DNA of 64,000 nt. Origin: Hawksworthiomyces lignivorus (taxonomy: Eukaryota > Ascomycota > Sordariomycetes > Ophiostomatales > Ophiostomataceae). The notes under the pieces were generated by a model that did not search any database, had not been told where the DNA came from, and saw only the letters and a list, made by a program, of their open reading frames with translations. The DNA lies in NCBI GenBank assembly GCA_002917075.1, contig NTMA01000049.1, positions 226,919 through 290,918 on the forward strand. Direction: 5' to 3'. This document shows positions 32,929 through 57,146 of the stretch, one piece after another. Made by a program: the position numbers and the translations under genes. Positions within the stretch are counted from its first letter, which is position 1, and every line of letters begins with the position of its first letter.

Positions 32929-33447
32929 TCTGATTGTCCGCACTAGTGAGTTTTGCCCTTGTGGGAAAAAAAATATTGCCTTGATTGAAAATGCTTAATG
33001 ATATCTATGAAGATATAACTGCTCAAGGTGTTATCTAAACAACTAGTCTGAGGGCTGAATGACACAAGAAAATAGGTTAGAGCTCGGACGTGCGATTAAC
33101 TGCGGCGCCGAAGTACAAGCCGAATGCCTCAAGTGGACTGATACGAGCGTCGTCGCCGAGACTGTGGTAACCAAGATTAGGGGCTGGTGAATAGGGGCTA
33201 AGGAACCTCGGCGGCAGCTACAGAGAAGGTGAAGTATCAGTAGTGTCTAGTAATTGACACCACCACCCCCGAGCCATCTTATTTGGGCCGTCAAGAGGAG
33301 TAACCAGTAGTAGATATCAGATTCCGACCGCTAGTAGCTCAAGTTCTATACTCAATTCAACTTCAATCTTGTCCCTTTCCTACTGCTTTCTGCGACGTGA
33401 AGGTAGCAAGTCAGCAGGTCAGCATACTGAAGCGCTCCGTGGGCATC
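32929..33447. promoter_or_regulatory. Shared divergent promoter, monooxygenase / esterase
   Basis: 519-bp head-to-head region. It holds GCGGCGCCGAAGTACA at 33102-33117, whose GGCGCCGAAGTACA core recurs at 55362-55375 before the MFS gene. Confidence 0.6.
33102..33111. promoter_or_regulatory. CGG-N2-CCG palindrome (GCGGCGCCGA)
   Basis: One mismatch to TCGGYRCCGA. It lies 174 bp from the monooxygenase start and about 340 bp from the esterase start. Confidence 0.55.
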
Positions 33448-34681
33448 ATGGCATCTACAGTTGCGTTACTGCTGCGGCATCCACTACAAAGTCTGCTCTT
33501 CGGCTATAGTTTTTCTTGCCAGTTACTACTTGTATTGCTACGACGTCTTCTATTGCCGCACTTGCCAACCTACCAATCTCTCCGCATTCAGATTCACCGT
33601 GCTTTTCTCTCGGCAGCATCCACCACCTTCCCAGACTTGCCTCGTCGGCTGCCGGTCGGCGAGTTGTCGCCAGCGCGAGCCACAAAGATCGATGATTCTG
33701 GCAGCGCGTACCTCATCCCCGGAGGCCGCCAACTCTCTCAATTCATGGTCAGCGAGACCCAGAAGCGATGCGTTGTGCTCTTTGCGCACGGCGGAGGCTA
33801 TGCGCGCGGTGAAGCCAAGATGTACGTCAACTACATGGAGCGATGGGCCACGCTTGCGGCCGGGGCTGGACTGGACCTCGTGTTCGTCAGCGTTGAATAC
33901 CGTGAGTGTAGCGTAAATGGCGGCAATTTCTCTCGCTAATCTGCCGTGCCCTCATTCTTCGTCTCTGCTAATTAGTTTCCCCAGCGCTCTCAGCGGAGAG
34001 CTCGCACCCAGCGCAGCTAAATGCGTTTGTCTCTGAGTACAAGAAACTGCTTGCGGCACGGATTCCACCACAAAACGTAGTTTTTATGGGTGACTCGGCG
34101 GGAGGTAGGCAACTCCTGGTCTGGTGGGCGGAAAGACGAATTCCTCTCTCCCCCTTTTCTTTACTCCAAATCTGGGTCGTAGTACTTGCTTATCTCATTA
34201 TTCTCTAGGTGGTCTGTCCATACTCTCGGGGATAGAGTTACTGCGGCAGGGACTGCCGCAGCCAGCCGCCAGCGTTTTGATCTCGCCGTGGATAGATATG
34301 GCAATGTCTGCTTACGAAGGCGGCAACGCGGCGGTAGAAAGTGACTATTTTGTCATGGCCAATACTGCCGTGTCGAGATTGGTCCAGCTATTTGTCGGCG
34401 ACTATCAGCCAGATTCGCCAGAGGTCAACCCGCTATACCGTCGGCCAGAGGAGCTTCGCAGCCTGAACCCGCAGCTGATTTTTGTTGGCGGAGGTGAGTT
34501 CGCGCTGTACGACTCGAAAGCCTGGGCCAAAAGGTGCAAAAAAGCTGGTGTGTCTGTAGAGCTTCACGTCGAGTGGGGACAGCTTCACATCTGGGCCATG
34601 GGCTCCCGCTTCATCGAGCCGGAGTTGCGCCAGCGCACTGATTTGTGTATCATTGACTGGATATTACATCATGTAGCTTAA
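33448..34681 (+). CDS. Alpha/beta-hydrolase, hormone-sensitive-lipase family esterase
   Basis: Carboxylesterase of the Abhydrolase_3 (HSL) group. Three exons (33448-33901, 33985-34104, 34209-34681) give 348 aa, the usual length. The oxyanion motif HGGGY, the nucleophile elbow GDSAGGG (split by the second intron) and SVEYPLSAESSHPAQ are visible. The histidine is probably in QLHIWAM and the acid in the preceding GGGEFALYDSK region. A hydrophobic N-terminus (LLLVLLRRLLLPHL) could anchor it to a membrane. Most likely it cleaves the ester or lactone made by the adjacent monooxygenase, an inference from the divergent pairing and from known BVMO-esterase pairs. Confidence 0.88.
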
Positions 34682-35078: not shown

Positions 35079-37148
35079 TTACAGTTTTGCCGTGGTTTGC
35101 TCAGGCCCAGAACTTGCCGCTCGCCTGATGAGCATCCGTCGCATGATTTTCCCAGATGCAGTCCTCGGAATCTCGTTTATAAACTCAACGCCAGCAGTCA
35201 GCCACTTATGCTTCGATAGCCGAGCTTCAATGTATTTCCGCACTTCATGCTCTGTAAGTTGTTGATCCGGTGCTCGAACTATAAAGGCTTTGGGGTATTC
35301 TCCGTTACGCCTGGAGGAACATTTTAGCAACTTGTTGAGAGAGGGACAAGGGGAGGGAAAAGAGCTTACCTCTTCTCGCCAACTACGGCAGCATCCTTGA
35401 CGCCTGGATGTGTCAGAAGCGTTTGCTCAATTTCTGCTGGTGCCACTTGCAATCCTTTCACTTTGATGAGTTCCTGTAGATATACGCCTGTTAGCTATTA
35501 ACGATCGACCCTCCAGCGTCTTCATCCGCAAATATAGCCTCACAGACCTTTAAGCGATCAATGATGTAAAGCCGACCTTTCGAATCGACATAGCCGATAT
35601 CTCCGGTCTTGAACCATCGGTTTTCTCCTTCAACGACAATGGCGTTCGCTGTCTCCTTCTCTCTTTTGTAGTAACTCATCATGATATTTGGCCCCGATAT
35701 CCAAAACTCGCCCACGGTATAGGGAATGTTCATATCCTTGTCAAAGCTATATTCGGCTACGGGGACCACCTTGGCTCGCATATTTGGGTTCAACCAGCCG
35801 ATGGACCGCCCATCGTCTTGATCATCTTGCGCAAAGCCTGTTGCCGAGCATGTCGTCTCTGTAAGCCCCCAGCCTTGCTTCACTTGAACTCCGGGGCGAA
35901 GATACATTGTCTGAACAAGCTTTCCGATGTCCGGATTTAGCGGAGCGGAACCAGAGACGACCGATTCTATTGCTTTGAGGTTGTACGCGGACGCGCGAGG
36001 GTGCTTCGCAAGGGAGACCAGAAGTGTGGGCACGCCAGTTAAAAAGGTGATTCTATATATGTCTAGATAGAGCAGATACTTCTGGAGATCATATTTGGGC
36101 ATGATGAACACCTTGCATCCAATTATTGCAGCAGTCGTGCAGTAATATGCTTGACCCTTAGAGAAATGTCAGTCATGTTGTTTTTTACCTTCATAGGAGA
36201 AGGAACACATGGTCACTCATCACACTCATTACTTCCACACGCCCTGGAACTTACATATGCATGAAACATAGGTAATGGAGCCAACCAGCGCTCGCCGGAT
36301 AGGTCAATTCGTTGCTTTCGGTTCTTCGCCGACGGGGTATCTGCTACCATGAGCCTCTTGAAAGCCACCTGAGCCGAATTGGAGACGATGTTATAGTGCG
36401 ATATTTCCGCGCCCTTGGGCACGCCCGTTGTTCTGATGCACTGTTAGCCAGTACCTCATGGCGCGATAACGGTTTCGTTGACTTACCCGCTCGAATAGTT
36501 GATTGCAGCCGCTGTCGTTTGTGCCTCTTCCTTGTTGGTAAATTTCTTCCATGTCCATGTCCTAGTACTGTCTTCAGAGGCCCATAGATCTGTCCAATGC
36601 TGTGCTTCATGATTTTTTGTTGTGTTCAGGCCCGAGAATACAAACACGCGAGATTTTGGTAGCCCGACCTTTTCTGCGGCCTCAAAGGCCTTCTCTAAGC
36701 AAGCGGGATCAGCAAGAAGAAGCCGAGAGTCGGAGTCGCCTAACTGGTAAGACAGTTCTAAACATATTTGCGATCAGCTTACTGGAACACCGTGGTAACA
36801 ATGGAAAGCATGTGTGTGCTTCTCACCTGCAACAGAACTGGAGGGCGAGCAGCCCGTGAAGACACAGCCTGAGGCTACCACGCCCCAAAATAGAATAGGG
36901 AAGTATAAAGAGTTGCCAGAGTAGAGTAAGATCTTCTCATTACTCTGCAGTCCAAAGTCCTGCAGGCCTTTTGCCCACCTCTTGACCCATTTCTCAGCCT
37001 GGGACAGACTGAAATTATTGACCGGGTTATCAGCATCAAAATACTGCGGCCGAGCTTGGGTCTCGGGTGTGCTGGAAGAGAAGACGAAGGTGGCCAGATC
37101 GACTGGCGTAATGTCCAATTTGTACGGTGAGTCGTAAATTTGCGCCAT
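35079..37148 (-). CDS. Acyl-CoA ligase (4CL-like AMP-binding), PTS1 AKL
   Basis: ATP-dependent acid:CoA ligase of the ANL superfamily, about 560 aa from roughly six exons. Ordered parts: [13 protein letters not shown] start, [22 protein letters not shown], the P-loop [19 protein letters not shown] (split by an intron), [25 protein letters not shown], the A5 motif [31 protein letters not shown], and [11 protein letters not shown] with the catalytic lysine. The protein ends TTAKL; AKL fits the peroxisomal PTS1 consensus. Start options are ATG 37148 or 37163; the former matches relatives. It is divergent from the AtuA gene with a shared TCGGTGCCGA. It should activate a carboxylic acid produced in the pathway. 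Internal splice sites were judged by eye. Confidence 0.9.
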
Positions 37149-37570
37149 TGTGGTACGATGCATATCTTGTCCAAATACCCGACATTCTTTGTGGTGCGCA
37201 TCGATGACTCCCAATATTGATGGCCAGCTTAAAATACACAATTTTTCCTGAATATTTACTGGATACTACCAGGTTGGAAAAATGGTAGTGTGAATTACTA
37301 GACTTTCCGATCCAGTGGAGAACAGCAACCTCGGTGCCGAGTGACCCTATCCCGTCGGCATCGAATGACCAAGACGCCGTCCCGCTTTGGCATCCCTGAC
37401 AGCCACCCATTGCATCTTTGTGCAGCTCTCAAAAAGAAAAGGCGCTCTAAGTCTGTCAATCTCACAAAGCATAGATATAGTAGAAAACTGCGAAACAAAA
37501 CCTCCAGCTCTGGCCATTGGAAAGCAGAACTAGGCGCTTTATCACTTCAGTTTAGTCTTCAACAGAGAAT
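37149..37570. promoter_or_regulatory. Shared divergent promoter, acyl-CoA ligase / AtuA
   Basis: 422-bp head-to-head region with one exact palindrome at 37331-37340. Confidence 0.6.
37331..37340. promoter_or_regulatory. Palindrome TCGGTGCCGA
   Basis: Exact TCGGYRCCGA, 183 bp from the ligase start and 231 bp from the AtuA start. Confidence 0.6.
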
Positions 37571-39988
37571 ATGGCTCAATCGAAGCTTCCGGTAATGCTG
37601 GGAAGTGTCTCGGGATCGACAGGAGACCGACTTGATGGTAAATTTCACAGATGCTCTTATTTCGTTGCTGCTAAGTTGCTAAACTTCTGCAAAAAGGCTT
37701 GAAGTCCATGCTCCAGGGTCACACGACAGTGGACGTGATCGTGGGCGACTGGATGTCAGAGGTGGGCACGCTTCAAAGTTCGACCGCCAAGGCATGGAAA
37801 CAATATTAGTTTGAAGAACTAACCCAAGAAATTGTGTTCACTAGGCGAATCTAGCTTCGCGATCCCTCCAGCTCAAGCAAGGCCGAGGCAGGGGGTACGA
37901 GCCCGGATTTCTGCATTCCCTTCGCATTGCCCTGGATGATTACCTCACTTACAGGAATCACAACTTGAAAATCGTTGTCAACGCGGGTGGGTTGAACCCC
38001 AAGGGTCTTGCAGAGGATGTCCAATCTCTGTTGTCTAGCAAAGGATCAAACAAGCTAGTAGCCTATGTTACTGGAGACAATCTGCTACCGGAGATTGAGA
38101 ACGTGGCCATTGAACCACTGACTAGATCGACTGGTGATTTCGTGTCTTGGAAAAAGAAGTTCCCGGAAATTATTCAAGCAAATGCGTATATCGGCTGCTG
38201 GGGTATCGTGCGCGCCTTGCAGGAAGGCGCTGATATTGTCATTTGTGGTCGATGCACTGATGCGAGCACGGTGGGTACTCATCTACTATTCCCCTGACTC
38301 TCTGGTTTCCGTTACGTCCTATTCTCTATGACATCTAAGACACAACTACTATAGGTTATGGGAGCCACAGCTTGGTGGCATGGTTGGGGCGTCAATGACG
38401 CTGACTTGCTTGCTGGCAGTCTGATTGCTGGTCATCTAATAGAGTGTGGCTGCTATGCAGTAAGCGTCCCCCCCCCCCCCCCCCCCCCGGGGCCTGCCTA
38501 TCTCTGTACGCATTGCTAAAAATTCAAATATAATGGCGACTGCAGACGGGAGGAAATTATGGCGATTTTGAGGCCCTTCAGCCAAACTACTTCGACCTTT
38601 CTTATCCCATTGCTGAGATATTTGCCAATGGCACAGCGATCATCCAAAAACAGCCCAGACAAAACGGAGTGTAAGTCTCTGCCTACGAGATGAATTTATG
38701 TTGGGAGCACCTAGTTAAAACTTGCCTTTTCTAGAGTCAATATCGACACGCTCCGCGGTCAGCTGCTCTATGAAATACAGGGTCTCTACTACTATAATCC
38801 CGACGTCATCGCAGACTTGACCAATGTCCAGCTCGAACAGATCGGCAAGGATCGCGTACAGCTCTCCGGCGTTTTGGGTAAGTGTGGTGGACCATACGCC
38901 ACCGGATATTGAGCTCATTGGCTAACGAAACATGCCAGGCATTCCTGCTCCGGAGACACTCAAGATTGCTATTATGGCTATTGGGGGGTACCAAGCCGAG
39001 TTTTCCGTATACATCACTGGTCTGCAGGCTAAGGAGAAGGCCCGGAGTTTTGAAAAGATGGCACGCAGGATTGTCGACGTATCCCAGTTTGATGTGCTCG
39101 ACTTCCAGCTTTATGGAACTCCGAAGGAGAACCCGCACAATCAGCTTGAGTCCACCGTACAGCTACGCGTCTTTGGCCAGTCACGTACGCCCAAAGCCCT
39201 AAGCCCTGGGCGATTCCTCGGCCCTATGATGAGTAACCAGTTACAGGGCTATCCAGGACTGACGGCTAATCTTGACTACCGAACGGCTGAGCCAAAGCAT
39301 ATTTGTACGTACTTTCCTGGGCTTATATACCGTAAGAAAGTACGACAGGCAGTCCACTTTATCAAGGATCCCGGTCAGACCATTGCCATTCTCGACGAGG
39401 CAGTCATTACCCCAAAGCATCTGCTTCCCAAGCAGCGAAGCTTCGAGACCGCACACCCAACGCCGTTGGAGAGGTTTGGGCCAACGCAAAGGGTTGCCCT
39501 GGGTGCTGTCATCTTCTCTCGGAGCGGCGACAAAGGGTCGAACGTGAACGTCGGATTTTTCTTTCCTGGCAACGTCAACGATAGAGCTAAGTATGACTGG
39601 CTCCGGAGCTTCCTAACTATTGAAAGCTTTCGCAGTACGGTTCCTTCCCCCTTTTTATAATTTTCTCCTTATCAAGTTTCTAGCATTTCACTGACGTGTA
39701 AAAAGCTCTCATGGCGGAAGAGATAATGCCCGACGCCTTTATCGAAAGATGCGAGCTACCTCGTATCTATGCCGTCAACTTTGTTGTCCACGGTATTTTG
39801 GGAGCGGGTGTTAGCAGCTCACGTAAGATGGACTCTCTTGGAAAGGTTAGTAGACACGGTATCCTAGCAGCCAGAAAGGTAGCTCTTATCGCTGACTCCA
39901 CAATGAAATGAAGAATCTAGCTGAATACCTCAAGGCCCGTCACATAGACGTACCGGTGGCTTTCTCACGAGGAGCGGCGCGCATATAG
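37571..39988 (+). CDS. AtuA / DUF1446 acyclic terpene utilisation family protein
   Basis: Homologue of AtuA, encoded with the Pseudomonas genes for acyclic terpene (citronellol/geraniol) breakdown; its exact reaction is not established. About 600 aa from around nine exons. The first splices give LGSVSGSTGDRLDGLKSML, then VDVIVGDWMSEANLAS. The DUF1446 core shows VNAGGLNPKGLAEDVQ, GDFVSWKKKFPEIIQ, IVICGRCTDAST, WHGWGVNDADLLAGSLIAGH and ECGCYATGGNYGDF. The C-terminal AtuA-like ferredoxin-fold domain shows VALGAVIFSRSGDKGSNVNVG. The last exon ends GAARI at 39988; ARI is a weak PTS1 candidate at best. One intron holds a run of 21 C (38468-38488). It is divergent from the acyl-CoA ligase gene. Confidence 0.9.
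38468..38488 (+). repeat. Poly-C tract in an intron
   Basis: 21 consecutive C followed by GGGG, inside an intron of the AtuA gene. True length is uncertain in any assembly. Confidence 0.8.
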
Positions 39989-40294: not shown

Positions 40295-41570
40295 TCAAAG
40301 TTTAGAACACCGCACAATGCCGCGATCAGTGTGTTGAAAGTTATGTCCCTCTGTCCATCCAAGCCAATCGGTCAAGATGGCATCACCGCCGTGTCCCGGT
40401 GTGAGTGTTTCTGCCACCCAACCTTCCCCGGGCACCTCTCTGCGGTCACCAGCTACTGGTAGTGATGGCGAGTGGCTGAGATAGACGACCGGCCTCTGAT
40501 CATAGCCCGATGCTTCCAATTCTTGCTGACCAAGGATCGGAGTGACACATGCGTCTGTGTCGTCAAATATCGATTCCCATTCCGCTCGTGTCTTTGACTT
40601 GAAGATCTGTGTGAGCTGTGTCCGAATGTGCGGCCAAATTGCTCGATCTTCTCGGTTGCCTTGAACGGAAAATCCGTATGGAGTTAACTTTTCCATCAGA
40701 ATGGAAAAAAATTGCGCCTCCAGAGCTCCCCTAGATTTATTTCCTTTAATAATGGAGGTGCCAAGTACAACTGAACTAGAGAATATAGCGCACTTACACT
40801 GCCAGGTACCGCCCATCCTTGGTTTCGTAGGTTCCGTAGTAAGGGCATCCTCCATCCAGGAGATTCGTGCCCCGCTGGCGGTTCCAGAGAGGGGTCTTCA
40901 TGCTTAGTCTCGGTGACGTGGAGATGAACGCGCTGCCGTCGACCATATTGGCTTCCACGACCTGGCCAGCTCCTGTGGTTGTACGGTCAAGCAGGGCAAG
41001 CACGATGCCCAGGAAACAGACTAAGCCACCTCCAGCAAAATCGCCCAGCAAGTTCATCGGAGGTGACGGAAGTTTGCCGTGCGGACCCAACATGGATAGC
41101 ACTCCCGATACGGCCAGGTAGTTGATGTCATGGCCGGCCATGTTCCGGTATTTTCCATCCCGACGGAATCCGGTTATCCGCGCAATGATCAAGCACGGAT
41201 TTAGCAGTCCTAGCTCTCCTGGGCCTAGGCCAAGCTTCTCCAAGACCCCTGGCCGAAACGGATCAATAAGCACATCCACGTTCTGTAATATATCTTTGAC
41301 GACCCGGACTCCTTGAGGAGATTTCAAATCAACTACGATGGAGCCCTTGCGCCGAGTTAGGAGATCTTTTGAAGGCGGAGCGCCGGGCCGATCGACCCTC
41401 AGTACTGTAGCACCCCAGTCGGCGCAGAGCATGCCAGTAAACGGACCTAGCAGTAGAGCGTGAGGACACCAAGCATGGTTAAAAGCAAAACGTGTGGTTT
41501 CTTTCTCACCTGGTGCGAGTCCCGCGAACTCCAGCACACGAATGTCGCTTAGGGGAGGTCTGCTTGTCAT
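40295..41570 (-). CDS. Alpha-methylacyl-CoA racemase-like (CoA-transferase family III), PTS1 SKL
   Basis: CaiB/BaiF-fold enzyme most like alpha-methylacyl-CoA racemase, which epimerises 2-methyl branched acyl-CoAs so that beta-oxidation can proceed. Exons 41570-41510, 41446-40798 and 40730-40295 give 381 aa, the AMACR length. Seen in order: [83 protein letters not shown] and [15 protein letters not shown]. The AGHDIN and LGDFAGGG blocks carry the His and Asp expected for the racemase proton-transfer pair. The C-terminus is CSKL, a textbook peroxisomal signal. It is divergent from the second family III gene. Confidence 0.9.
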
Positions 41571-41994
41571 TCTTTCAACGCAAAAAATAGTTATGCTAAT
41601 ATTGCTAAGAAGAGGGGTTTGCCTGGTAGGTAATAGAAGGCTACAGAGATCAAATGTCATATTATTTCTTGGAGAGAAAGCGGTATGTGGTGCTCCAGAT
41701 GTTAGAATGGCACATCATGTGATAACGACGCACCCCGCACTCTTTCGGCGTGGCTGATTGTTCGGCAACGAGATGGGCTAGGGCCGGCGTAGTATCAATT
41801 GGTTGCACTACGGCTCGGCGACTACATGTACTCTCTCGGTCGCCGTTGCGGCACCGGCGCCTTACGACCGATCATATCAAAAGGAGCATAACACCCTCTG
41901 AAACATACACTTAGCGATCTGTTTCACGTGTCAACTATTCTTAAGGTTATCGCAATTGACAATACTTCGTAACCTAACTGCATCATCGTGCCGG
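41571..41994. promoter_or_regulatory. Shared divergent promoter of the two family III genes
   Basis: 424-bp head-to-head region with GCGGCACCGG at 41848-41857 and a nearby CGGTCGCCG (41837-41845), which is CGG-N3-CCG. Confidence 0.55.
41848..41857. promoter_or_regulatory. CGG-N2-CCG palindrome (GCGGCACCGG)
   Basis: Core CGGCACCG intact, both outer bases differ from TCGGYRCCGA. It lies 138 bp from the plus-strand start and 278 bp from the minus-strand start. Confidence 0.45.
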
Positions 41995-43802
41995 ATGGAT
42001 TCCAACCAGGAGTCGGGGCAGCCCTACTCCATTGCTCGCGAGAGCCACGCAATTCTCGTCACCGAGCTTATCCAGAACCCCTTGCACAGGTCCTTGCCGA
42101 GAGAAGCAAAAGAGCTGGTACAGTTTGTCACGTATGAGGGCTCGCCTTCTCCGTGTCTTCCCATCAACTGGAGACTTGCAGAAAGTGCAGCCTCACTGAA
42201 GGGTCTCGAGGCCATCCTCATCAATGTCTTGCTCAAGCGAAAGTACGCTCAGGGTCCGTTTCCAGTCAAGATTAATACAGACCATGCACAACTCTTTTTC
42301 ATGTCGTCGCTGTTGGTCGAAGTCAACCCGGACTTGTCAGCACCAATCCAGCCAACGCCAATTCGCGAGCTGACTTTGAAGTACGCTGACTACTTCCCGA
42401 ATAAAGACGTGCATAATATGGTCTCGTCACCATTCAGAAAGGCGGTCACGAACATCTATAGGACTAAGGACAACCGCTTTTTCCATCTGCATGCTAGCCT
42501 TAACCCTAATCCGAGTCTGGAAGCTATTGGGTTCCCACTCGACGATCCCACGATCTCAGACGTGAAATCGTCATATGAGCCTTTCATGAAGCGCATTGCC
42601 GAGGAAGATGCCAAGACATGGGACAATCTCCTTGGGGAGAAATATCGACAAGCTGCGACGATCTGCCTGAGCACGGAAGAATACGCTGAGAGCCCTCAAG
42701 GCCAAGCAAATGCCAATGTTGGCTTATACCGGGTGAACCGGCAGGATACGGCACACGAGGCCGGCTGGTGGACGCCAACAAAGGAAACATCAGTCAGACG
42801 TCCTCTGGCTGGACTCAAAATTGTGGATCTGACTCGCGTTATTGCGGGGCCATCAATCGCGAGAGGCCTTGCGGAGCTTGGCGCCAGCGTCATGCGCGTG
42901 ACGGCACCACACCTCGCTGACTTTTCTGGTCTGCACCCTGACCTGAATTGGGGCAAGTGGAACTCTTCACTTGACCTGCGACAAGCAGAAGACAGAAAGA
43001 AGCTTCGCTGCCTCGTTCTGGAGGCGGATATCGTGGTGAATGGCTACAGACCTCAAGTTCTGAACAAATTCGGCTTCGGCCCCGATGACGTTTTCGAGCT
43101 GACAAAGAACCGAAAAAGAGGGATCATTTATGTCCGAGAGAACTGCTTCGGATGGGACGGGCCGTTGGCACATCGCAGTGGATGGCAACCCATCAGCGAC
43201 GCGCATAGTGGTGTCTCTATGGGATTTGGAAGGGCGATGGGTAACAATGAGCCTGTCACGCCAGTTTTTCCGAATTCTGACTACTGCACGGGTGAGGACA
43301 TGCCACATTCTACTACTTCTCTTCTTAATAATCCGACACTCTTTCATCGGCAACTGACTTTTCTGGGACAGGCATCGCCGGCACGTGTGCTGTGATTGAG
43401 GCACTCTTGGAACAGGGAGAAACAGGCGGATCGTATCTAGTCGACACGTCACTAAATTACTACAACCAGTGGCTGACCCGCTCCGTTGGCGAGTACCCCA
43501 AGGACATTTGGAACGAGGTGTGGATGCGCACTGGGCATGAAGTGTTCCGACATTACCAGAGCATGAACCATTCTATTCCTCGGCTGATCGAAAAGATAAA
43601 ACTGGATGGCACGCTCCTTGACCAACGCTTCTTTGAGGAGCGGGTATCCGGTGCACTGAACGGCTTGGTATTCCGCACGCCGAAACCAATCTTACAGTTT
43701 CCTCCTAACAGTGTTGAGCTGCGTTACAACGTAGGCACACGGGGGAATGGAGTCGACCAGCCATACTGGCCTGTAAACTTGTTGACGGAAGTCGTCCGCT
43801 GA
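41995..43802 (+). CDS. CoA-transferase family III (CaiB/BaiF-like) protein
   Basis: Second family III protein, larger (575 aa) and of a different subgroup from its divergent neighbour. Exons 41995-43291 and 43372-43802 (80-bp intron, GTGAGG...GACAG) join YCTG to IAGTCAVIEALLEQGETGG. An N-terminal half of about 270 residues contains a first partial fold (INWRLAESAASLKGLEAILI, then TNIYRTKDNRFFHLHASLNP). The second half holds LAGLKIVDLTRVIAGPSIARGLAELGASVMRV, typical of the CaiB N-terminal Rossmann part, and YRPQVLNKFGFGPDDVFE. The family moves CoA between carboxylic acids; donor and acceptor cannot be predicted here. No PTS1 (ends EVVR). Confidence 0.85.
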
Positions 43803-44914: not shown

Positions 44915-46006
44915 GGCACAAGAGGAAACAGCGTACTGCCTCGAAAGCACCGGAGAAAATAGACTCACTCTGCCCAGGGCGCGGCGAGCAGCGATAGCTC
45001 TCGGAATTGGTTAATTATGTTCGGATAGCGTCACATGATCCATTACTGTGCACATGCCATCATGATAGACACGATGGGCTATTCTCTTTTTTTGTTCCTT
45101 TTTTGTTCTATGCTAGAGAAGAGAGGAGAAGCAGGGATATTCCGGACTCCAGTGTTTAGCTCTATTATCTTGTAGTATCGGCGCCGAGGTCCCGCCAACT
45201 ACATACCAAGCCTCTGGCCTAGTGAACCAGGGTCGGCTGATTCCTCGGTGACTTAGTTTACAGCGTAATAAAAGGAATGGCACTAGTCTAGCATAAGATA
45301 TAGGTGCCTTCATGTGCTTGTCTGCAAGAGTCGTATATTAAATATTACACCACGAACAATATAGAGACAACTCCGATGCGTCGGCTCTCGTTTTCCTGCC
45401 CTGAATCACTCTTTTGTTCCAGACCCCTACTTCCCTACACATATACCAGAGTGTGCGAAACCATGGCGATGTCAGTTGATTTAAAGAATACCTATCATGT
45501 TATTACTCATAGTATATCAACAATATAAGTCGGTGTTCGCCTTTTTTTTTTGCTATTCTTTTCCTAATTTAACTTCGATGGGTCATACACCTTATCTTTT
45601 GCCTCTAAGTAATTAATTAAAGGCTACTTTGTGGAACTACTTAGGATTTTAAGAGAAGCTTATTAAGAGGAAAATCGGAGATGCCGAGGTTGTTCTCATA
45701 TTACTATTACTATACTATTATCACTATACTTTAAACGTAAATATATATGTTTACTCGACAGATGCCAGACGTCTTTGACGGAGATGCTGACAATTATTTA
45801 AATCAATCTCATAGTAGATCTAAAGGAGCAACGCTTGTTAGCCTACTTTGCCTTGATGCTTGCTGTTATCAATATCTCGCCGATGTCTACTGAACAATGG
45901 CGTGGTGCTTCCTATATAAGAATTTGAATTGGTCCTTGAAAGCCGAAGACGAAGAGGGGAGTACCGTATAGCAGTCTATGGGATACTGCATAGTGGTTCT
46001 CATACG
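44915..46006. promoter_or_regulatory. Thioesterase promoter and 3' spacer of the second ligase
   Basis: About 1.1 kb without a gene. Contains an exact palindrome at 45178-45187 and AT-rich DNA from 45540 to 45760. Confidence 0.5.
45178..45187. promoter_or_regulatory. Palindrome TCGGCGCCGA
   Basis: Exact TCGGYRCCGA, 264 bp upstream of the thioesterase start. Confidence 0.6.
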
Positions 46007-47877
46007 CTATAGATGAGAGCCTAAACTCCGACGAGCCATCTCTTTCAAGGGTAACTTCAGGACTTTGCCAGCTCCATTTCTTGGAAGAGTGTCTATAAAA
46101 TGCACGCCGCCAGTCAACCGCTTGTAGCTAGATAGTCTTGACGCAGCATATTCTATCAAATCTGTCTCGGTGGCATTATTTCCAGGCGAGCGAACGACAT
46201 AGGCACAGGGGCATTCGACTCCACCCATAGTAATGCCAATCACGGCAACCTCAGAGACCCCTTCGTGTTCAAAAAGAACACTTTCCAGCTCTGCTGGAGC
46301 AACCTGAAAGCCCCTGACTTTGATCAGTTCCTAGTCACCGTTAGAGAAGGGATCACCAAGCATTCCGGAGGGGAAGGAGGAGGAGGGAGAAGGACTATGC
46401 GCTCAATGGCAGAATGTTGGGCTGAGCCCTAGACCAGCATCTGACTCACCTTCTTTCGGTCCAGAATAAACCACTTTTTGTCTTCTTCGTTGATGTACAT
46501 GATGTCTCCCGTCTTAAGGAAACCAGCCTCGTCGAAGGCATCCCGCGTAGCAGCTTCATTTCGATAATACCCCTGAAACACAAGCGGGCCACAAACATGG
46601 AGCTCACCGGGAAGGCCGTAGGAAGTGATCTCCCGGCCTTCTTCGTCAATCAGCTTGCCGGTCATGTTTGGCACAAGCATTCCTATACTGCTGGTCCTAT
46701 CATCACCTGGATATAGCACCTTGGCAATAACGCCAGTGAGCTCGGTCATACCGTATGCTCCATTCCAGGGGCAGTTCGGCGGGATTAACTCACGCCATTG
46801 CTTCTGCAACGCTTGGCCGATAGGCGCCGATCCGCATATGCCGTAGCGAAGAGAAGAAAGCTTTTTCTTTTTAACTTCAGTGGGCATGTCCGCGCGCAAC
46901 ACGGCCAACATCATGGCCGGGGCTAGTCCGGTGTCCGTGCATCGGAACCGGTGCACGTTGTCTACAAACCGCACCGCGTCAAACTTGGGGAGCATGTACG
47001 TCGTCCAACAGGCGCGCAATGGCGTGATGTGCGACCAGACTAGAGAGGCCAAGTGGAACATGGGCCATGCCATGAACTGCCGCACCTGGTAGTCGCGGAC
47101 CTCGACGTCATTGATGAGCGTGGCTGCGGCGATAATGTTGTGGTGGGAGATCATGGCTAGCTTCGGGACGCCACTGGTACCACTTGTAGGATATAGACAT
47201 GCTGTTGTATTCTCGGCGGTTTCTATATCATCGAATGCAATCCAATCTTCTGTGCCATGCTGAAGGAGGTTGGCCCATGAACTCGGATCCTGCTCTGTGT
47301 CGGCGAGGGACGTGATGGTAAAGACATTTTTCTCACTGATCCCGCACTCTGCGGCCATGCGACGAGCATTTGCCACTAGCACGGGGGCACAGAAAATGAA
47401 CCTCGAGTCAGAGTCAGCCAGGTGTCGCAGCATCTCGCTGTGCGACAAACCCGGATTCATACCCGTCCACGCCCCTCCACAGGCAACGGCGCCAAAGCAG
47501 ATTACGGGCTGGTAGATCTAGGGGTATGTCAGCTCCTCACCCATATAGCTAGGCTGGCAGCGGGCTACTTACACAATTTGGCGAATATAGGCAAACTATA
47601 TCGCCCGGCATAAAACCCACAACTTTGAGTCCCTTTGCTAGCCTCCTACTAAGGACTTCTACTTGCTTCTTTGACAGATACTCTCGCTCTGGATGTTCGG
47701 CATCTATAAGAACCTACAAAGGCCCATCATGCTATGAGTACCACGAATCGGTCTTACAGTTCCGTTGGTCCAGTTACTGACAGGCTGATTTAGGTCCTGA
47801 GTCGCGTCGGCCGCGAACACGTAGCTGAGGAGGTCCGACGTGGGAATCTGAACCGACGGAATCGGGGAAGGAAACAT
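46007..47877 (-). CDS. Acyl-CoA ligase (AMP-binding), PTS1 SHL
   Basis: Second ANL-superfamily ligase, about 550 aa in five or so exons. The first exon (47877-47758) encodes MFPSPIPSVQIPTSDLLSYV and splices to VLIDAEHPEREYLSKKQVE. Motifs: PGDIVCLYSPNCIYQPVICF, P-loop YPTSGTSGVPKLAMISHHN, AYGMTELTGVI, KTGDIMYINEEDKKWFILDRKK, ELIKVRGFQVAPAELE and GAGKVLKLPLK with the adenylation lysine. The C-terminus reads GSHL; SHL fits the PTS1 consensus. It differs clearly from the first ligase, so the two probably act on different acids. An exact palindrome lies 204 bp upstream. Confidence 0.9.
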
Positions 47878-48489
47878 GGTGGACGTCGAAAGAGCGAGAT
47901 AGCCAATCTCTTTTATTTAGATTCCTGTTTTGGTCTTAGCCTTGGACATATTATAGTTTTTTTTTTTTTTTTTTTTGATATTTCAACCCTTTTGTCCTTC
48001 GTAATGAAGCATACGGCCAAGACAGGTATTATTTGTAATATTTACTTCCATCCGCAACCTCACTATTCCGGCCTCAGCCATCGGCGCCGAGCAACCTATC
48101 TGTATAACGCCAAGCACATAAAAAGGAAAAGAAGAAAAGAAAAAAGAAAAAAAAGGCTGCATTAACCTTTGAAAAAGCGAATCACCTTTTTTCTCCCACC
48201 AAAGTTGATACATATATTGTTTCTTTTTATGGCCTCTTATTTAGTCTCATGACACCAGATCTCTGTATTCTCAGGCTGTAAACGAAGTCCCAATTGAGCA
48301 AGTTATTTTACCAAAGGCAAACCGATATTTGTAGATAAGTGAGTTAAATTACCCACGTTCCGATTTCTAGTTAATCTCTGATAACTCCAGCGTATTTTAT
48401 GAGTGCCTCGGTGCGGTTTTTAAGTGACCCCGAGCCGTAGAGAGCAGCATTCTATAGTGGAGAGAGACATATATCTCGTATCTTGCTAA
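47878..48489. promoter_or_regulatory. Promoter of the second ligase
   Basis: Holds a T run (about 47957-47976), an exact palindrome at 48081-48090 and a purine-rich tract at 48121-48155. No gene. Confidence 0.5.
48081..48090. promoter_or_regulatory. Palindrome TCGGCGCCGA
   Basis: Exact TCGGYRCCGA, 204 bp upstream of the ligase start at 47877. Confidence 0.6.
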
Positions 48490-49548
48490 TCATTCAACTT
48501 TAAAGTCCTTGAGAAAAGCCCAGTATAACTTCTTTTTGAAGCCATTCTTCTCGTCTTTCCAGTCGTCTATCACACCCGGATAGAGATCAAGAACATCGCC
48601 GGCGTCGGCATCGTGAGCGGTTAGCACAAGCACATTGTCACTCCCGTCAAGTTCTCTAAGCTTCTGCTGGCTTCTCATAGCCTCATGGACAGCTTCTGAG
48701 TTCTGTGGATTGACGAGTTCGTAGAACGGCTCGGTGCGAGATTTCTTAGGGTGGATTTGTAGAAAGAGAGCACCAGGACAGGGTGTCCGCCGCGGATACT
48801 GCTGGCTGCTGACGAGCGGGTTTGGATCGATCAGATCCGGAAGCGGACAGTACTCACTCGGGCGAAACTCTCCGCCATGGTGGCAGCAGTCCGCGGCTAG
48901 TACTACAAAGGTTGTCGGAGTCGTTCGAGCAAGACCCATGATGTGACCGATCGTGTGGCCAGGACAGTTAAGGAGGTAGAAAGATCCATCTCCAAAATAG
49001 TCGTAAGCGTCGTATTGCCCTATCTTCAAGTTCACGCTCTGGAAGTCGATCTCGCGCAGCTCTCGGCCGGCATAATCACTTTCAAGGATCCACGAGTCCT
49101 CGCGAGCGGGGTAGCCTGGCAGAAATTCCTCCTTGAAGCCAGGGCCAACCACAAGCGCGGTTGATGGTGGGAATTTGGACGGGTCTCCAGTGTGGTCAAA
49201 ATGGTGATGCGACCAGATAATTGTGGATATTTGAGATATCTCGTCGCCCAGGATGTCTGCGACATTTCTCTTGGACTCGATGGTCATGTGTCCGGCAAAC
49301 TCTCGCGTTCTTGGAGACAGGTTCTCTGGGTCTTTTCGGATGCCCAGGTCGAAGAGAACCTTCTCGCCCGTCTTTCTATGGGTGAGCAAGAAGGAGAAAC
49401 AAGGGCAGTTGAATTCGTCATGGTCATCAATGTGCGGCTGGACGACCATCCCTGTCTTGGCAATGATTTTTGACGTGGAGTCTATGACGGATACCGAAAC
49501 CGTGGATGACGACTCCGGAAACCTGACGGCTGGCGTAAAAACAGTCAT
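48490..49548 (-). CDS. Metallo-beta-lactamase fold hydrolase (lactonase-like)
   Basis: Single-exon gene, 352 aa from the ATG at 49548. The zinc-binding signature HHHFDHTGD (HxHxDH) is intact, followed by CPGHTIGHI (second histidine), VLAADCCHHGGEFRP (bridging Asp and additional His) and LTAHDAD (last His). This spacing and the preceding FLLTHRKTGEKVLFDLG are typical of the AttM/N-acyl-homoserine-lactone lactonase branch. In a cluster with a Baeyer-Villiger enzyme, hydrolysis of a lactone is a reasonable guess, but substrate is unproven. No PTS1 (ends DFKVE). It is divergent from the SDR gene with two palindromes between. Confidence 0.88.
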   Translation of the reverse strand: MTVFTPAVRFPESSSTVSVSVIDSTSKIIAKTGMVVQPHIDDHDEFNCPCFSFLLTHRKTGEKVLFDLGIRKDPENLSPRTREFAGHMTIESKRNVADILGDEISQISTIIWSHHHFDHTGDPSKFPPSTALVVGPGFKEEFLPGYPAREDSWILESDYAGRELREIDFQSVNLKIGQYDAYDYFGDGSFYLLNCPGHTIGHIMGLARTTPTTFVVLAADCCHHGGEFRPSEYCPLPDLIDPNPLVSSQQYPRRTPCPGALFLQIHPKKSRTEPFYELVNPQNSEAVHEAMRSQQKLRELDGSDNVLVLTAHDADAGDVLDLYPGVIDDWKDEKNGFKKKLYWAFLKDFKVE

Positions 49549-49763: not shown

Positions 49764-49773
49764 CCGGCACCGA
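49764..49773. promoter_or_regulatory. CGG-N2-CCG palindrome (CCGGCACCGA)
   Basis: One mismatch to TCGGYRCCGA; 216 bp from the MBL start. Confidence 0.5.
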
Positions 49774-49809
49774 ACGAAACCCATGTGAAAATCCAGACAA
49801 ACGTGCCAC

Positions 49810-49819
49810 TCGGTGCCGA
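49810..49819. promoter_or_regulatory. Palindrome TCGGTGCCGA
   Basis: Exact TCGGYRCCGA; 186 bp from the SDR start and 262 bp from the MBL start. Confidence 0.6.
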
Positions 49820-50004: not shown

Positions 50005-51346
50005 ATGAGTTATTCAGCCTACAAACCCGGTGTAATCGACTGCACTACTGTAGTTGATACCCGGCGACTTCGAGGAAAGAGTGTGGTTGTAACTGGAGGT
50101 ATATGGTAGCCTCTATAGTTGATCTTTTAAGCACGGTCTTGTTGGCTAATTAGTGACCTAGGTGCCAAAGGAATGGGTGAAGAAGGCGTGCGTGCCTTTG
50201 TCGCAGCTGGGTAGGATGCCTACGCTTCTGCGTTGCTAGTCGGATTATACATTGACGAGTTGCAGGGCGTATGTCACCTTCGGCGATCTAGACAAGGAGA
50301 ATGGTGAGAAACTAGAGAAAGAGCTGAAACCGTACGTGTCGTAACTCTGTCGCGCTCTGTGCTACCCTTATACGCATCCTTTACTCTCGTCAGGCAGTGT
50401 GGGCGGCTTACCACCCCAACAGGAATGTGACGTTTCTCACTTGTGATGTCACCGTGTGGGAACAGCAATTGGCATTGTTCAAAGCTGCTCTGGCACACTC
50501 ACCCCAAAAATCAATCGATGTCGTCGTCGCAAATGCCGGGATCAGTGGCCCTGACGAAGCCTTTGCCATTGATGGTATGAGAGGTTGACATATTGCGAAA
50601 GCTTTGGCGTGATCCGCATTAGTGCTAATCTCCAGTCTCTCCCTCAAAAGACACTAACGAGCCGACCAAGCCAATACTGAACATTCTACAAATTAATTTA
50701 ATTGGAGTTATTTATACCTTGAAACTGGCTCGGCACTACTTCTCGAGGCAGTTTGCCGATAATTCCCACGACCGTTGCTTCATCTTGAACTCGAGTTTGG
50801 TCGGGTTTTTAGACGTGCCGGGAACACCTCAATATATGGCGTCAAAGTGGGGATGCCGGGCACTGATGAGGTGTATTCGCAGGACCACCGTGGTTGACGG
50901 CGTTCGTATCAACCTAACAGGACCATGGTGAGCACCCTGCTCAAGTACCGACCAAATCTCGTACGTATTCGTTGAGACAATGCTTACGTGTGGTTGGATA
51001 GGTACGTGGCCACAACCATTCTAAGCCCGACGGTACAGGAGTACTGCCGAAGCAAGGGCATCGTCTTTGCAGAGGCTGCGGATGCGGCTAATGCCTGGGT
51101 CAAGATTGCCTCGGACCCCTCGATTAACGGTGTGTATATCTCCCTTCTTTGTAGAAAGTCTGGCACATGGCTTATGCACGGCGTGAATCAGGACGCTCTT
51201 TTGCTATCGTTCCCCGCAACATTGCCCCAATGGGATATTTTGACATCGGTAAGGACGATTATAGCGAAGGAGAAGTTCTGAATGATCTCCAAGAGATTTT
51301 GCTCCGAACATCCCACCGGCTGGAGGTCAAGGCCGAAGATCAGTAG
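50005..51346 (+). CDS. Short-chain dehydrogenase/reductase
   Basis: NAD(P)-dependent oxidoreductase of the classical SDR family, about 310 aa in six or seven short exons. The cofactor motif VVVTGGAKGMGEEGVRAF is assembled over the first splice. AYVTFGDLDKENGEKL ends beta-2 with an acidic residue, favouring NAD over NADP. VVVANAGISGP (NAG), the catalytic serine in ILNSSLVG and the active site YMASKWG (YxxxK) are all present. The last exons read RSLAIVPRNIAPMG, then a tail ending KAEDQ. No PTS1. A likely role is oxidation of a secondary alcohol or hydroxy acid after ester cleavage. Some splice positions were chosen by protein similarity. Confidence 0.85.
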
Positions 51347-52300
51347 TAGACGCATTTCCAAGGAACGCATTGCTGGTCACTTCTCTATCAGTTCCAAATT
51401 CAGTCAAAATAGTTTCTTAAAATTGCCCTAGAAGATTAACGGCACTATTGTAATGTTGCAACGAGAGTAATTGAACAGTTGCAACTATTAATGTAAGGTT
51501 TTACAATAAAATGATCACTTTAGGTCACTTTCATCGGTGAAAATATCGTAGTGCTTTATTGCCCATTTATAAGAGAACGGCGTCACGGCAAGTTCGTCAT
51601 CAAATTCGCAGTACATTAAAAGTTCAATCTCGTTCTGAGCGACTTCCTTCCTGCTTTCTGTCGTTGCTAGATGCACGTTGCAAACCTAACCTAGTTCCTA
51701 CTAAGGCAAACACTGGAGTGCCTCTTTGGTAGGATATTAGACATATGGCAAAGACTCCCTAGTCAATCTGTCACTGGAATTGAGTCGATTCCTGTTTGTA
51801 TCTTCAATTAAACAGCTGGGAATAGTATAGTTGCCTATTATTTAGTTAATTATGCAGTTCAAACTAAAGGAAAGAGAGGAAAGGAATTAGTCATAGGCAA
51901 AAAAAGAAGGGGTGGGAGGAGGGAGACGATTTCACTTTTGCAATGGTCGAGATATTGTTGCTCGTCGCACTGGCCCCTTTTCTACGCGATTAGTAGTCAA
52001 TCCAGACCAGTGTTCGAGGATGCCACCAGAAACAAGGAGCGCCAAATCGAACACTCAATCAGCAGGATAGGTGGTGCACTGATCGCATATATGGTCGCTT
52101 TGTAGATCTTGTCGTATGTCTCAACAGACATCTATACAACGCGCATTCTAAACGACACGATGCCGGTACCGTCGACTTTCAGGTCTCCGGCAATTTTAGA
52201 CATCTTTTTATCATATTCTTAATCTACCAGTTGCTAGTGGCATCAACTTAACAGACCTTGACATTAATGTCGGGATGTTCGGTGCTATGGTCGCCCGAGC

Positions 52301-52325
52301 GGGGGGGGGGGGGGGGGGGGGGGGG
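52301..52325 (+). repeat. Poly-G tract
   Basis: 25 consecutive G, preceded by GCCCGAGC. Length probably approximate. Confidence 0.8.
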
Positions 52326-52564
52326 ATCATAGGTACAAACCACACTAGTAATCAGCACGACTCCAGGCAGTGTAAATGCCACAGCATTTCCCTTTCATGG
52401 GAGGATTTCGGCAGGCGTATGACAGCCCTTCTGCTTAGTTTCTGTACCGCACTAAGTGGCTTCTTGTTCTCGGAGATATTACACCTCTCTTTGTATAGTG
52501 GACCGGTAGCCCATCTTAGATGAGAGAAGATATGGTATTGGAGAGCCCTCAATACTGCTCGGCA

Positions 52565-52574
52565 TCGGTGCCGA
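52565..52574. promoter_or_regulatory. Orphan palindrome TCGGTGCCGA
   Basis: Exact TCGGYRCCGA not followed by an intact gene on either side. Confidence 0.5.
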
Positions 52575-53320: not shown

Positions 53321-55151
53321 TTATTCGTGAGCAACCTTGTAAGGGTACTTCTTCAACAAGAAATGGGAAGCGAACGAAATAGCCGCACCCACTGCGAACA
53401 GCGCAGTGCAGGTGCCGAAACCCTTATAATAGTTAGGGGCTTCCGATGCCGGGAATAACGCTGAACCGTAGACCTGCGCCAGCTGGGAGAGACCGTTCAC
53501 GATACCTAGACTCACCGCCCTCATCTCTGGATCAACCTCAGCTAAAACAGTAGAAGCATATGATAGGGCAACGGGACTACCTGCCCAAATGGCCGAATTG
53601 ATAAAACAGAGAAAGACATATCGTGGCACGTAGGCAAGAACACCTGTAGCAAGGGCACACATGATCGCCCCCCCTAGCAAGATACTAGCAGTAATCAATG
53701 CTCGTATGTTTGGGTAGATGTCGGAAACGATTGACAACGGTATTGCGAGCGCGAAAGCAACACAGTATAGAGGTGCTGTCATAAACCTAGTAGTCCGTTT
53801 CAGTCAGTCTCGCCAAAAATCGTATATTGTTCCAAAACTTGTCGATAAAAAGCAACTAGTCTATACTCACTGTGCAGTGGTCGAGGTGTATCCGAGGCCT
53901 TGTATAAGATATGGGTAGAAATATGCAAGCGCGGAGCAGCCCACGAACTGCATATACGGCACCGCAAGAAAGTAGATCCTCCAATTCAAAACAGATTTAC
54001 AGAAGGCTGTCCATTGGCTTATGTCTTTGCCTTCATGGCCTTTCGCCGATGTGATGGAGTCTTTCAGGAGTCGTTCCACGGCCATAGATCTCTGCTCGGG
54101 AGTGAGTCTCTTAGATGTTGCCGGATAGTCGAGGAGACCGAAGGGTGCCACGACTGCTATGGAGACAGTTAGGACACCTTCAATAATGAACAGCCAGCGC
54201 CAGCCGGCAATTCCTCTAGCACCGTCAAGATTTCGGCTAATGGCCCCAGCAAGAACACTACCGAAAGCGCCAGAGAGAATGCAGGCGCTCAAGAATAATG
54301 TAAACCGCTTTGACCTGTTCGTACAAATCAGAACAAAATATACAGCCATCAGCGTAGTAGCTATGCGATAGACCATGACCTACTGTTCTTCTTTCTTATA
54401 CCAGCAACTAATGAGATAAAACACGCCTGGCTATGGCATAAATTAGCTTCAGTCACTCAGGGTCTTAGTTAGAAACCGCGGGGAGGTAGGCATTGCTCAT
54501 GTACCGCAAATCCTGCTTCACAAACTCCCAAAAGGAATCGTATAGCCAATAGCTGACCCTTAGACTGAACGGCACCTAGACAGGCTGCACAAGTCCCCCA
54601 CAGAAACAAAATTGTGGGAATGTAGATCGACGGGCGAAGACGAGAGATGAGCATACTGCGGCCTGTTAGCGGGGGGCCATGCTCTCCTCTTTTTATTTTC
54701 CTGTAAGACGAAAGGCCAGGTAGTCGTAGACCACTTACTTTGACGGTGTGCTTGTAATAACGTAACCGACTAAAAAGATGACAACCGCATGATAGTAGTC
54801 ATTGTCGCTCAATTTGAGCGCCTTATTCATGCCAGCTACGTTCGCATTACCAAGGTTAGACCGGTCCTGATGATATTAGCATCCACCTGATTTCAAGCAT
54901 TAGTAGGAGCTTAACTGATGGTCACGCACAAGATAGCTTAGAACCATGAGTACCCAGAGAGTAGGCATTAAGTAGAGGTCAATCTTCCACAAAAGCCGTC
55001 TCTCTGTGACTTTCCTGGCCTTATCATCCAGATCTGTATTCTCCAACTCCTGATTTTTCTCAAGATCTTGGCTTTTCATCTCAGCCTCTAGTTTGTCATT
55101 CCCTTCAACATGTTCCTGAAGAACGGAGTCTTTGTTGTCAAGCTGGGCCAT
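53321..55151 (-). CDS. MFS transporter, anion:cation symporter (Dal5/TNA1) type
   Basis: Twelve-helix importer, about 500 aa in seven or so exons. A charged N-terminus MAQLDNKDSVLQEHVEG leads to RRLLWKIDLYLMPTLWVLMVLSYL, the family entry signature. Later blocks: SRLRPSIYIPTILFLWG, LLAIRFLLGVCEAGFA, which splices over an intron to PGVFYLISCWYKKEEQ and again to SKRFTLFLSACILSGAFG, then WRIYFLAVPYMQFVG and the final helices ending PYKVAHE. Splicing is needed to recover the helix-5 PG motif; without it a false stop appears at about 54469. An exact palindrome lies 209 bp upstream, so I place it in the cluster as the likely substrate or intermediate importer. Confidence 0.88.
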
Positions 55152-57146
55152 TGTGCCGTTAAGGTGCAGAAAAAGCGCGCAAGAAGTTGAGGCACAAGAG
55201 TGTTGATCAGTTCGCCTTTTTCTAATTTCCGTTGCGGCCTTCTGCAGTACTGATATAGCATGAAAGCGAACTAGATTTCTTAAATCTTCAACGGAAAAAG
55301 TGACAATATACTCAAAGCAGTGGCAACCCCATGGGGTAGAACGTCCCAAATGATCGGGATCGGCGCCGAAGTACACTAGTAGAGTTCCATTACCGCTTAG
55401 CGTTTGTCTATGGTGGCCGATAAACAGAATTATTTTGCCATAATTGTGCGAAGCTCAATTAAACAACACTAAAGTATTTTCCATTCTCCAGTGCCAAAAC
55501 GAGGCCTTTTTTTTTTAGCTGAGCTTTATCGACTTTTGTATGTATCAACTTATGTGAGTTTTGTCCACCAGGCGTATAGTATTATGGCTTGGTGTGAGAC
55601 TTACTATTGGATTTAGCGCTATCCGAAAACGACCAAGTAGGGGCAAGGTGCTGGGTGTCCTCGCGCTACAGAGGCCAGATGATACTTTTTCGAAGCAATA
55701 GGCTATCCAAAAGTCGCCCAAGTCACCTCTATTCGTCAATAGAGGATTAAGTGCTCGTTTATTTATCGGCGGAGGCTAGCGAACAAGCTGACAAGGTTTG
55801 GGCATGAAGGCTTTGAACAAGTTCTAGGGCTGCCACATTGACTTGCACACACATGTCGGTGACTTCATGTTGTTTTGTGGCCTTGCTGATGGCGACATGA
55901 CAGCATTAGCTGATTGCCTTGGCCGTCGGATCTCTTGCACCTGGCATCGGCTAAGAGCGAAGCAACGGAATAGTTGCTATCATTCGCTACCTTGGAAGAA
56001 GGTGGAGCGAAATTCTATGTGTCTAATTAAACAAAATGATGAAACTTTGTTGACACGACTGAACGCTTAAGAAGAATAAGCACAGGTAAGAACTTGTGTA
56101 GAATTATATCCAAGTCTCTCGGGCTCCGATACCGCCACGAACACGCATGTTCTAATTTGTTCTTGCCAGTATCACATACGTAGCAGGCCAACATTCCAGG
56201 TGTCAATCGCACCTTAGGGAAATAGCACTGATTAACATGCGTGTGGGTTTTTAAATGGGTTGTCTCTCGATGTGGGTGTCTAGAACGCAACTACCAAGAA
56301 CATACATGTTAGCATCGATGGAGTGTTGCAAAATAAGCAATTAATCCAATCTCGTTTACGGTGTATTTCGCTAATCAAGTTGCTCCCCTTTCTCCGCGCA
56401 ATTTCACACATCAGCTAAGCTTTTTTAGTCCGCCAAAAAGCGGAGGTATGGCGTTCAATCCTGTCTACCTACTGAGCCAAAGCTAATTATCTACGTCCGT
56501 ACAAGGCGTAATCATCTGGGTTAGAAACTGTTCCAAGCGGAGGTATATGTAAGTAATTTATAAATTAATCTATGCTGGAAAAGTAAACCCAAATTCCAGC
56601 GTACATTAAACGCTTACCTAAGAAATTTCTTCACATAAACAGATTTGCTATCGCTGCAAGACTGTATATAGTACAGAATTACCGAGCCGAATGCATCTTG
56701 AATCTCGGCGCTCGGTGACATATGCATAAATTCAAGCTAGAAACGGGGCCGAGTCTATACTACATTATGTTGCTGTATCCACATATACAGCACAGTCCAG
56801 AGGACAACTAGTAATAGTCCATAGCACAGCTTTGATCCGACGAATCATACCTCGTCTCCATCGTCTTGGATTATGCCTCTCTCGCTGAGCATATCCAATA
56901 ATATCTGCAATTACAAAAGTAAGATCCGAATATGGGTGGTTCCCTCCCAACACGGGGAAATGGGGAAAATGGGGGAAATATGGGGAATTTTTCAGTGAAC
57001 GAATATATAAGAAAGCAACCAGTCATACACCTTTGGCTTTTGTTATGTCGTCTCGACTATTACCTTATTACTTAAGTTAATTATAAATATCCGAAGACAC
57101 GATACATCTATAAAATTAATTAACACGAATATCGGACACAACAGTC
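55152..57146. other. 2-kb intergenic region, cluster edge
   Basis: Carries the MFS promoter with a palindrome at 55360-55369. Beyond about 55500 it is featureless; several short frames (for example 55843-56070 and 56027-56290) have no family features. A GGGGAAATGGGGAAAATGGG stretch lies near 56954-56990. Confidence 0.45.
55360..55369. promoter_or_regulatory. Palindrome TCGGCGCCGA
   Basis: Exact TCGGYRCCGA, 209 bp upstream of the MFS start; the following AGTACA is shared with the site at 33102. Confidence 0.6.

Follow-up and report, generated by a model that had tools for sequence, protein, structure and literature searches.

We analyzed a window of 64,000 nucleotides from the ascomycete Hawksworthiomyces lignivorus (positions 226,919 to 290,918 of contig NTMA01000049.1; C136:226919-290918 in our numbering), whose genome comprises 43,707,421 bp on 191 contigs. 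The window contains a cluster of putative catabolic genes and, beside it, genes for two Zn2Cys6 regulators, termed TF1 and TF2, and we predict that the palindrome TCGGYRCCGA is, very probably, the operator of this cluster. Exact copies were found at 37331..37340, 45178..45187, 48081..48090, 49810..49819, 52565..52574, and 55360..55369; all six lie within 18,039 bp, and the 64-kb window contains none besides. These coordinates agree with those given in a preliminary description of this DNA, and the three near matches that it named, at 33102..33111, 41848..41857, and 49764..49773, indeed retain the CGG-N2-CCG core. The same description had regarded the word as an operator-like element of the cluster, a view that is well supported by the statistics of the word, by its position, and by its absence from four short convergent gaps.

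Shuffled versions of the window contained on average 0.21 copies of TCGGYRCCGA per 64 kb, and none of 100 shuffles contained six or more. Over the whole genome we counted 384 exact copies, equivalent to 0.56 per 64 kb and 0.16 per 18 kb. The earlier expectation of well below one copy per 64 kb is thus borne out by the genome rate, and the genome-wide density, scored over the genome rather than per promoter, does not argue against an operator. Places with one mismatch were also abundant in the window (22 versus 4.65 expected). The palindrome is barely more common genome-wide than the reversed control word (384 versus 333 copies), and its excess is local. The probability of encountering five further sites within 18,039 bp of one site was 7.3e-7, which becomes 2.8e-4 after genome correction (x384). 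We also conducted an inverted-repeat test on the intergenic DNA of the region from 30401 to 57146 (9,348 bp), in which 256 four-base half-sites were combined with gaps of 0 to 12 bp (3,328 words) and the 13 words counted at least three times were scored. TCGG-N2-CCGA ranked first among the 3,328 words, with 6 copies observed versus 0.062 expected (P 7.6e-11), and the second-ranked word, CGGC-GCCG (4 observed), overlaps the CG-centered copies of the first.

The density of sites elsewhere was assessed on a list that contained all 172 sites with a TG/CA center, a part of those with a CG center, and TA-centered sites among the first places only. The scan covered 44 contigs; on the omitted contigs with listed sites, these sites were single or, judged by eye, numbered at most two per 18 kb. 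Among the sites listed, the group in the window was the densest that is not a repeat. The next-densest group, on contig C131, was set aside, as its five sites, spaced by multiples of 126 bp, probably form a tandem repeat; the stretch G000:C131:144943-145709 holds five TCGGTGCCGAR words at this spacing. Contig C128, with five listed sites of which four lie within 21 kb, was rejected as a comparable group. Three of its sites lie in the 20 kb inspected: the frame around L061:1141 is ankyrin-repeat-like and has 461 codons, and those around L062:121 and L062:623 have 116 and 269 codons, respectively.

Gene models were drawn by eye, without a gene finder, and they delimit seven promoter-bearing gaps. 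Four of these separate divergent genes, which are a Baeyer-Villiger-type flavin monooxygenase (BVMO) and a hydrolase, acyl-CoA ligase 1 and an AtuA family protein, the CoA-transferases CoAT1 and CoAT2, and a lactonase and a short-chain dehydrogenase (SDR). The remaining three lie upstream of a thioesterase, of acyl-CoA ligase 2, and of the transporter MFS1, the last gap having MFS2 at its far end. The core CGGYRCCG was present in all seven gaps, with eight copies in 5,504 bp, and in none of the four short convergent gaps. Its background was 0.14 per kb in 47 other loci of the genome (195,220 bp), which overlap in part and were chosen around genes; four loci retrieved by motif (L001-L004) and nine from the window's own stretch were excluded from this set. 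The claim that the palindrome stands in every structural promoter consequently holds for the core but not for the exact word, which was found in five of the seven gaps. According to the gene models, all nine exact and near sites are intergenic, and eight of them are located 138 to 337 bp from at least one start. An earlier statement that all sites lie 138 to 340 bp from starts was therefore correct except for the site at 52565.

The divergent pairs differ in their sites. The gap between BVMO (174 bp) and the hydrolase (337 bp) contains the near match GCGGCGCCGA (33102..33111), and that between CoAT1 (278 bp) and CoAT2 (138 bp) contains GCGGCACCGG, which has two mismatches (41848..41857). An exact site, TCGGTGCCGA (37331..37340), is common to ligase 1 (168 bp) and AtuA (231 bp), and its left flank gives CCTCGG. 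The lactonase/SDR promoter pair has both the near match CCGGCACCGA (49764..49773; 216 bp from the lactonase and 232 bp from the SDR) and an exact copy, TCGGTGCCGA (49810..49819). Of the four divergent pairs, initially described as served by one site each, two have an exact site, and the lactonase/SDR pair has two sites, one of them exact. The exact word TCGGCGCCGA was found 264 bp from the thioesterase start (45178..45187, with a right flank that gives CCGAGG), 203 bp from the start of ligase 2 (48081..48090), and 209 bp from the start of MFS1 (55360..55369). The sites at 33102 and 55360 have six further bases in common on the right (AGTACA), which is the longest common flank among the nine.

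The proteins of the cluster were identified by comparison with Pfam, NCBIfam, and PDB. BVMO (31013..32928, minus strand; PF00743) has cyclohexanone and steroid monooxygenases as its nearest PDB structures, and it is followed by an alpha/beta hydrolase of the HSL type (33448..34681, plus strand; PF07859), acyl-CoA ligase 1 (35082..37163, minus; PF00501), the AtuA family protein (37571..39988, plus; PF07287), and two family III CoA-transferases (PF02515), CoAT1 (40295..41570, minus) and CoAT2 (41995..43802, plus), the latter 75% identical to a Fusarium protein. Profile comparison identified a 4HBT (hotdog) thioesterase (44289..44914, minus) and acyl-CoA ligase 2 (46007..47878, minus), and family comparison an AHL-lactonase-like lactonase of the metallo-beta-lactamase (MBL) fold (48490..49548, minus) and MFS1 (53321..55151, minus); the SDR (50005..51280, plus) belongs to PF00106. 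By established chemistry, such a gene set would lead from a ketone to a lactone, an acid, and a CoA ester and onward. Judged by its genes, the cluster is probably catabolic and serves a ring-shaped ketone, perhaps a cyclic terpenoid or a steroid-like ketone. A literature search for AtuA, CoA-transferase, and Baeyer-Villiger enzymes together, judged by titles, retrieved no such cluster. A protein with an OrsD-type domain (PF12013; 60240-60869) adjoins the cluster, and AtuA matches were found on 16 contigs of the genome, that of the window included.

The preliminary description had recognized a single regulator, at 27784; a second gene of the same Far/CTF1 type stands beside it. Both proteins are related to the Far/CTF1 regulators by family similarity and by a PF04082 domain in each, and both were spliced by eye. 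TF1 (22895..25766, plus strand; 835 amino acids) is CTF1-beta-like, and its Zn2Cys6 domain, with the motif KACxxCRxRKVRCDV, was recognized by its six-cysteine pattern. TF2 (27784..30400, plus strand; 789 amino acids) shows the Far/CTF1-type pattern RAC-x2-CH-x-RKVRCDA and scores 20.6 bits against PF00172, just below the 21-bit cut-off. In a midpoint-rooted tree of 48 proteins, in which long branches meet so that the deep order is unsure, TF2 belonged to a clade of 21 rows, TF1 to one of 13 rows, and FarA, CTF1-alpha, and AmdR to a third of 14 rows. TF2 did not group inside the FarA/CTF1-alpha clade of this tree, and it differs from FarA and AmdR by a longer last zinc loop, which has 8 residues in the readable rows of the TF2 clade (11 of 21), 6 in FarA, and 7 in AmdR. 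One TF2 relative, P0014 of Aspergillus nanangensis, is annotated with an N-terminal PF07883 domain, which reflects a fusion or an error in the gene model. To the left of the regulators, the stretch 14001-18000 is low in G+C (0.33-0.38 versus 0.46 overall).

We consider TF2 the best candidate for reading the palindrome, and more likely than not its reader. TF2 is preferred because in other fungi it appears to be linked to an enzyme of the cluster and because a palindrome lies next to a TF2 paralogue. Linkage was judged from representative protein records, using an equal size of the longest contig and locus tags where these were close. Relatives of TF2 and CoAT2 appear to be on one contig in four of the nine species that list both. 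In Cladophialophora psammophila, A1O5_10435 and A1O5_10441 have the same longest contig size (673,898) and tags 6 apart; in Fonsecaea monophora, AYO21_10772 and AYO21_10776 (1,637,973) have tags 4 apart; and equal sizes were also observed in Cladophialophora immunda (180,573) and Xylogone sp. (6,927,901). Within the H. lignivorus genome, the best-scoring TF2 paralogue is located on contig C120 (40% over 131 residues), and an exact palindrome (L055:5467) lies in the divergent gap of about 1 kb between this paralogue and an MFS gene. This site also accounts for both exact hits in the 47 background loci, as it was counted twice in overlapping loci. Two further loci, L057 on C112, where a TF paralogue accompanies AtuA, and L056 downstream of the C120 paralogue, contain cores, and none of those listed has the full TCGG/CCGA flanks. 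A more speculative proposal, which we regard as rather doubtful, is that TF2 and its relatives in Fusarium, Cladophialophora, Fonsecaea, and Xylogone form a distinct lineage in which the longer zinc loop goes with the tight CGG-N2-CCG spacing, and that the operator-enzyme wiring of the ketone cluster moved, or was maintained, as one unit across distantly related classes of fungi.

Similar sites are known from other clusters. The GliZ site TCGGN3CCGA, which is proposed rather than proven, is reported to occur in the promoters of all gliotoxin genes but gliZ and gliA (PMC4006717), and the PglR site CGGN3CCG was described as an over-represented palindrome in five promoters of the Fusarium PGL1 pigment cluster, at 1.9 per kb versus a background of 0.10 per kb (PMC4872168). 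The half-sites of the GliZ site and of the palindrome studied here are identical and face each other, and the PglR site was found in a similar way to ours. However, both known sites have a 3-bp spacer and belong to biosynthetic clusters, for PglR that of a pigment, whereas the spacer here is 2 bp; the likeness to GliZ is one of sites. In the present cluster, too, a CGG palindrome is over-represented and lies upstream of most or all genes, and a Zn2Cys6 gene is found beside them. By its sequence, the palindrome would be a Zn2Cys6 operator of a known kind, in which the 2-bp spacing is a new detail. We found no regulatory use of TCGGN2CCGA, CGGN2CCG, TCGGYRCCGA, TCGGNNCCGA, or CGGNNCCG in the literature searched; the exact 10-mers, as well as the last three of these forms, led only to papers about ruthenium-DNA complexes or the processing of X-ray data. 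FarA/FarB and CTF1-alpha/beta have Zn2Cys6 and PF04082 domains related to those of TF1 and TF2. FarA and CTF1 are reported to recognize CCTCGG (PMC5068947), and putative CCTCGG sites are reported for FarA/CTF1 regulators (PMC10512302). This word contains TCGG, whereas the word of the cluster is a palindrome.

These relationships bear on which regulator reads the sites. TF1 might do so, with TF2 acting as a co-regulator or controlling another step, which we consider unlikely. TF1 reads as a complete protein with a zinc domain that is also of the CTF1 kind, and its promoter contains a TCGG-N2-CCGA word with a CC center, TCGGCCCCGA (22619..22628, 267 bp upstream), as well as TCGGCGCCGT at -823, a sign of autoregulation that TF2 is without. 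In addition, the TF1 relative P0241 and the TF2 relative P0003 of Fusarium sp. NRRL 52700 have the same longest contig size (174,804). However, no Cladophialophora or Fonsecaea protein was present among 120 of the 122 TF1 relatives (scoring was confined to the 7,998 candidates with the most words in common), whereas TF2 and CoAT2 appear to be linked in precisely these genera, and the exact site on C120 adjoins a paralogue of TF2. Alternatively, the sites could be read by a regulator of broad reach, of the Far/CTF1 or another type, whose gene lies elsewhere and for which the cluster would be one target among many. The TCGG in CCTCGG, the 378 further exact palindromes in the genome, the extension of the exact sites at 37331 and 45178, two of six, to CCTCGG/CCGAGG, and the presence of six such words in the 5,504 bp of promoter gaps (in four of the seven gaps, with three of the words before the thioesterase; 24 in 64 kb) are in line with this idea. 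We nevertheless judge it improbable, since four of the six exact palindromes are without the extension, three of the seven gaps contain no CCTCGG at all, and the group in the window is the densest non-repeat group among the sites listed. Moreover, six of the eight exact sites elsewhere for which frames were measured, among them the first four of 16 listed sites on contig C1, fall in frames of 214 to 572 codons, the exceptions being L055:5467 and L062:121. A Far-type regulator may act at single promoters, but this leaves the palindrome in all promoters unexplained.

Two explanations that dispense with a regulator fare worse. A chance run of G+C-rich words could be suspected from contigs C127, C128, and C115, which have three listed sites within 18 kb each; in view of the shuffle, inverted-word, and genome-corrected statistics and of the presence of the core in promoter-bearing but not in short convergent gaps, it appears very improbable. 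Still less credible is an origin of the sites from a dispersed repeat or a mobile element, of which they would be the remains. The TF2 promoter does contain an element of about 480 bp (26634-27116) with long terminal inverted repeats and a 71% match to its own reverse complement, and two of the sites have the six right-hand bases in common. However, this element is without CGG-N2-CCG, and the other 25-bp flanks agree at no more than 13 of 25 positions, with no run of more than four bases adjoining a site. Ends related to the element occur on C101, C106, C111, C120, and C121, and regulatory sequences in front of TF2 may have been displaced by this element.

Several observations weigh against an operator read by TF2. 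In two of the seven gaps with promoters all sites are degenerate, and the exact site TCGGTGCCGA at 52565..52574 lies between convergent 3' ends, in no recognized promoter, 1.3 kb past the stop of the SDR and 0.75 kb from that of MFS1, with no placed start within 1.5 kb. The SDR/MFS1 gap in question (51281-53320; 2,040 bp) carries a second CGG-N2-CCG word, the core CCGGTACCGT at 52163..52172, and a six-frame reading by eye, made without a library search, revealed no recognizable gene. These two sites may mark a lost or unrecognized cluster gene or may be idle. The promoter of TF2 has no exact site but only a bare CGG-CT-CCG at -185 (27590..27599), a weak match that could be due to chance, and TF1 adjoins the cluster equally. 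The site beside the C120 paralogue would by itself arise by chance in about 1% of cases, and six paralogue loci (L029-L034) were inspected. On contig C2, a paralogous stretch that combines AtuA and CoA-transferase with a bZIP-like gene (G000:C2:122000-131999; L054) has five one-mismatch words and no exact site in 10 kb, which would fit control of this stretch by a different regulator. The contig sizes of TF2 and CoAT2 relatives differ in five of the nine species, namely, Exophiala mesophila, E. bonariae, E. oligosperma, Fusarium proliferatum, and F. decemcellulare; for the two Fusarium species the tags came from different strains or assemblies, and the F. decemcellulare contigs are shorter than 8 kb. 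Finally, open-frame length gives no clear sign that the exact sites are non-coding. The six sites sit in frames of 74 to 184 codons, and frame length is of little informative value by itself because for random positions in the cluster the median is already 134 codons and the 90th percentile about 497. Long runs of G and C at 52301-52325 and 38468-38488 are likely to be length-variable or sensitive to assembly.

Taken together, we favor a model in which the operator would consist of two facing TCGG half-sites (CGG-N2-CCG) recognized by a cluster-specific Zn2Cys6 activator. This activator, most likely TF2 as a dimer, would bind to one or two copies about 140 to 340 bp upstream of the structural genes, and in four cases one stretch would serve two divergent genes, so that the presence of the substrate would induce catabolic enzymes and transporter jointly. 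The sites, their enrichment, and their placement are observed, as is, in protein records, the apparent linkage of TF2 relatives to a cluster enzyme in some other fungi; we infer the binding of TF2, its dimerization, a role in activation and not in repression, the inducer, and the substrate, a cyclic ketone. The palindrome represents a clean, testable hypothesis and not a new kind of system. If the model is correct, the word allows the regulon of this uncharacterized catabolic cluster to be predicted, and the cluster boundaries, the regulator, and a gene that may be missing near 52.5 kb become directly testable. The 2-bp gap between the facing CGG triplets, tighter than the 3 bp of GliZ and PglR, would then inform on how Zn2Cys6 dimers read spacing.

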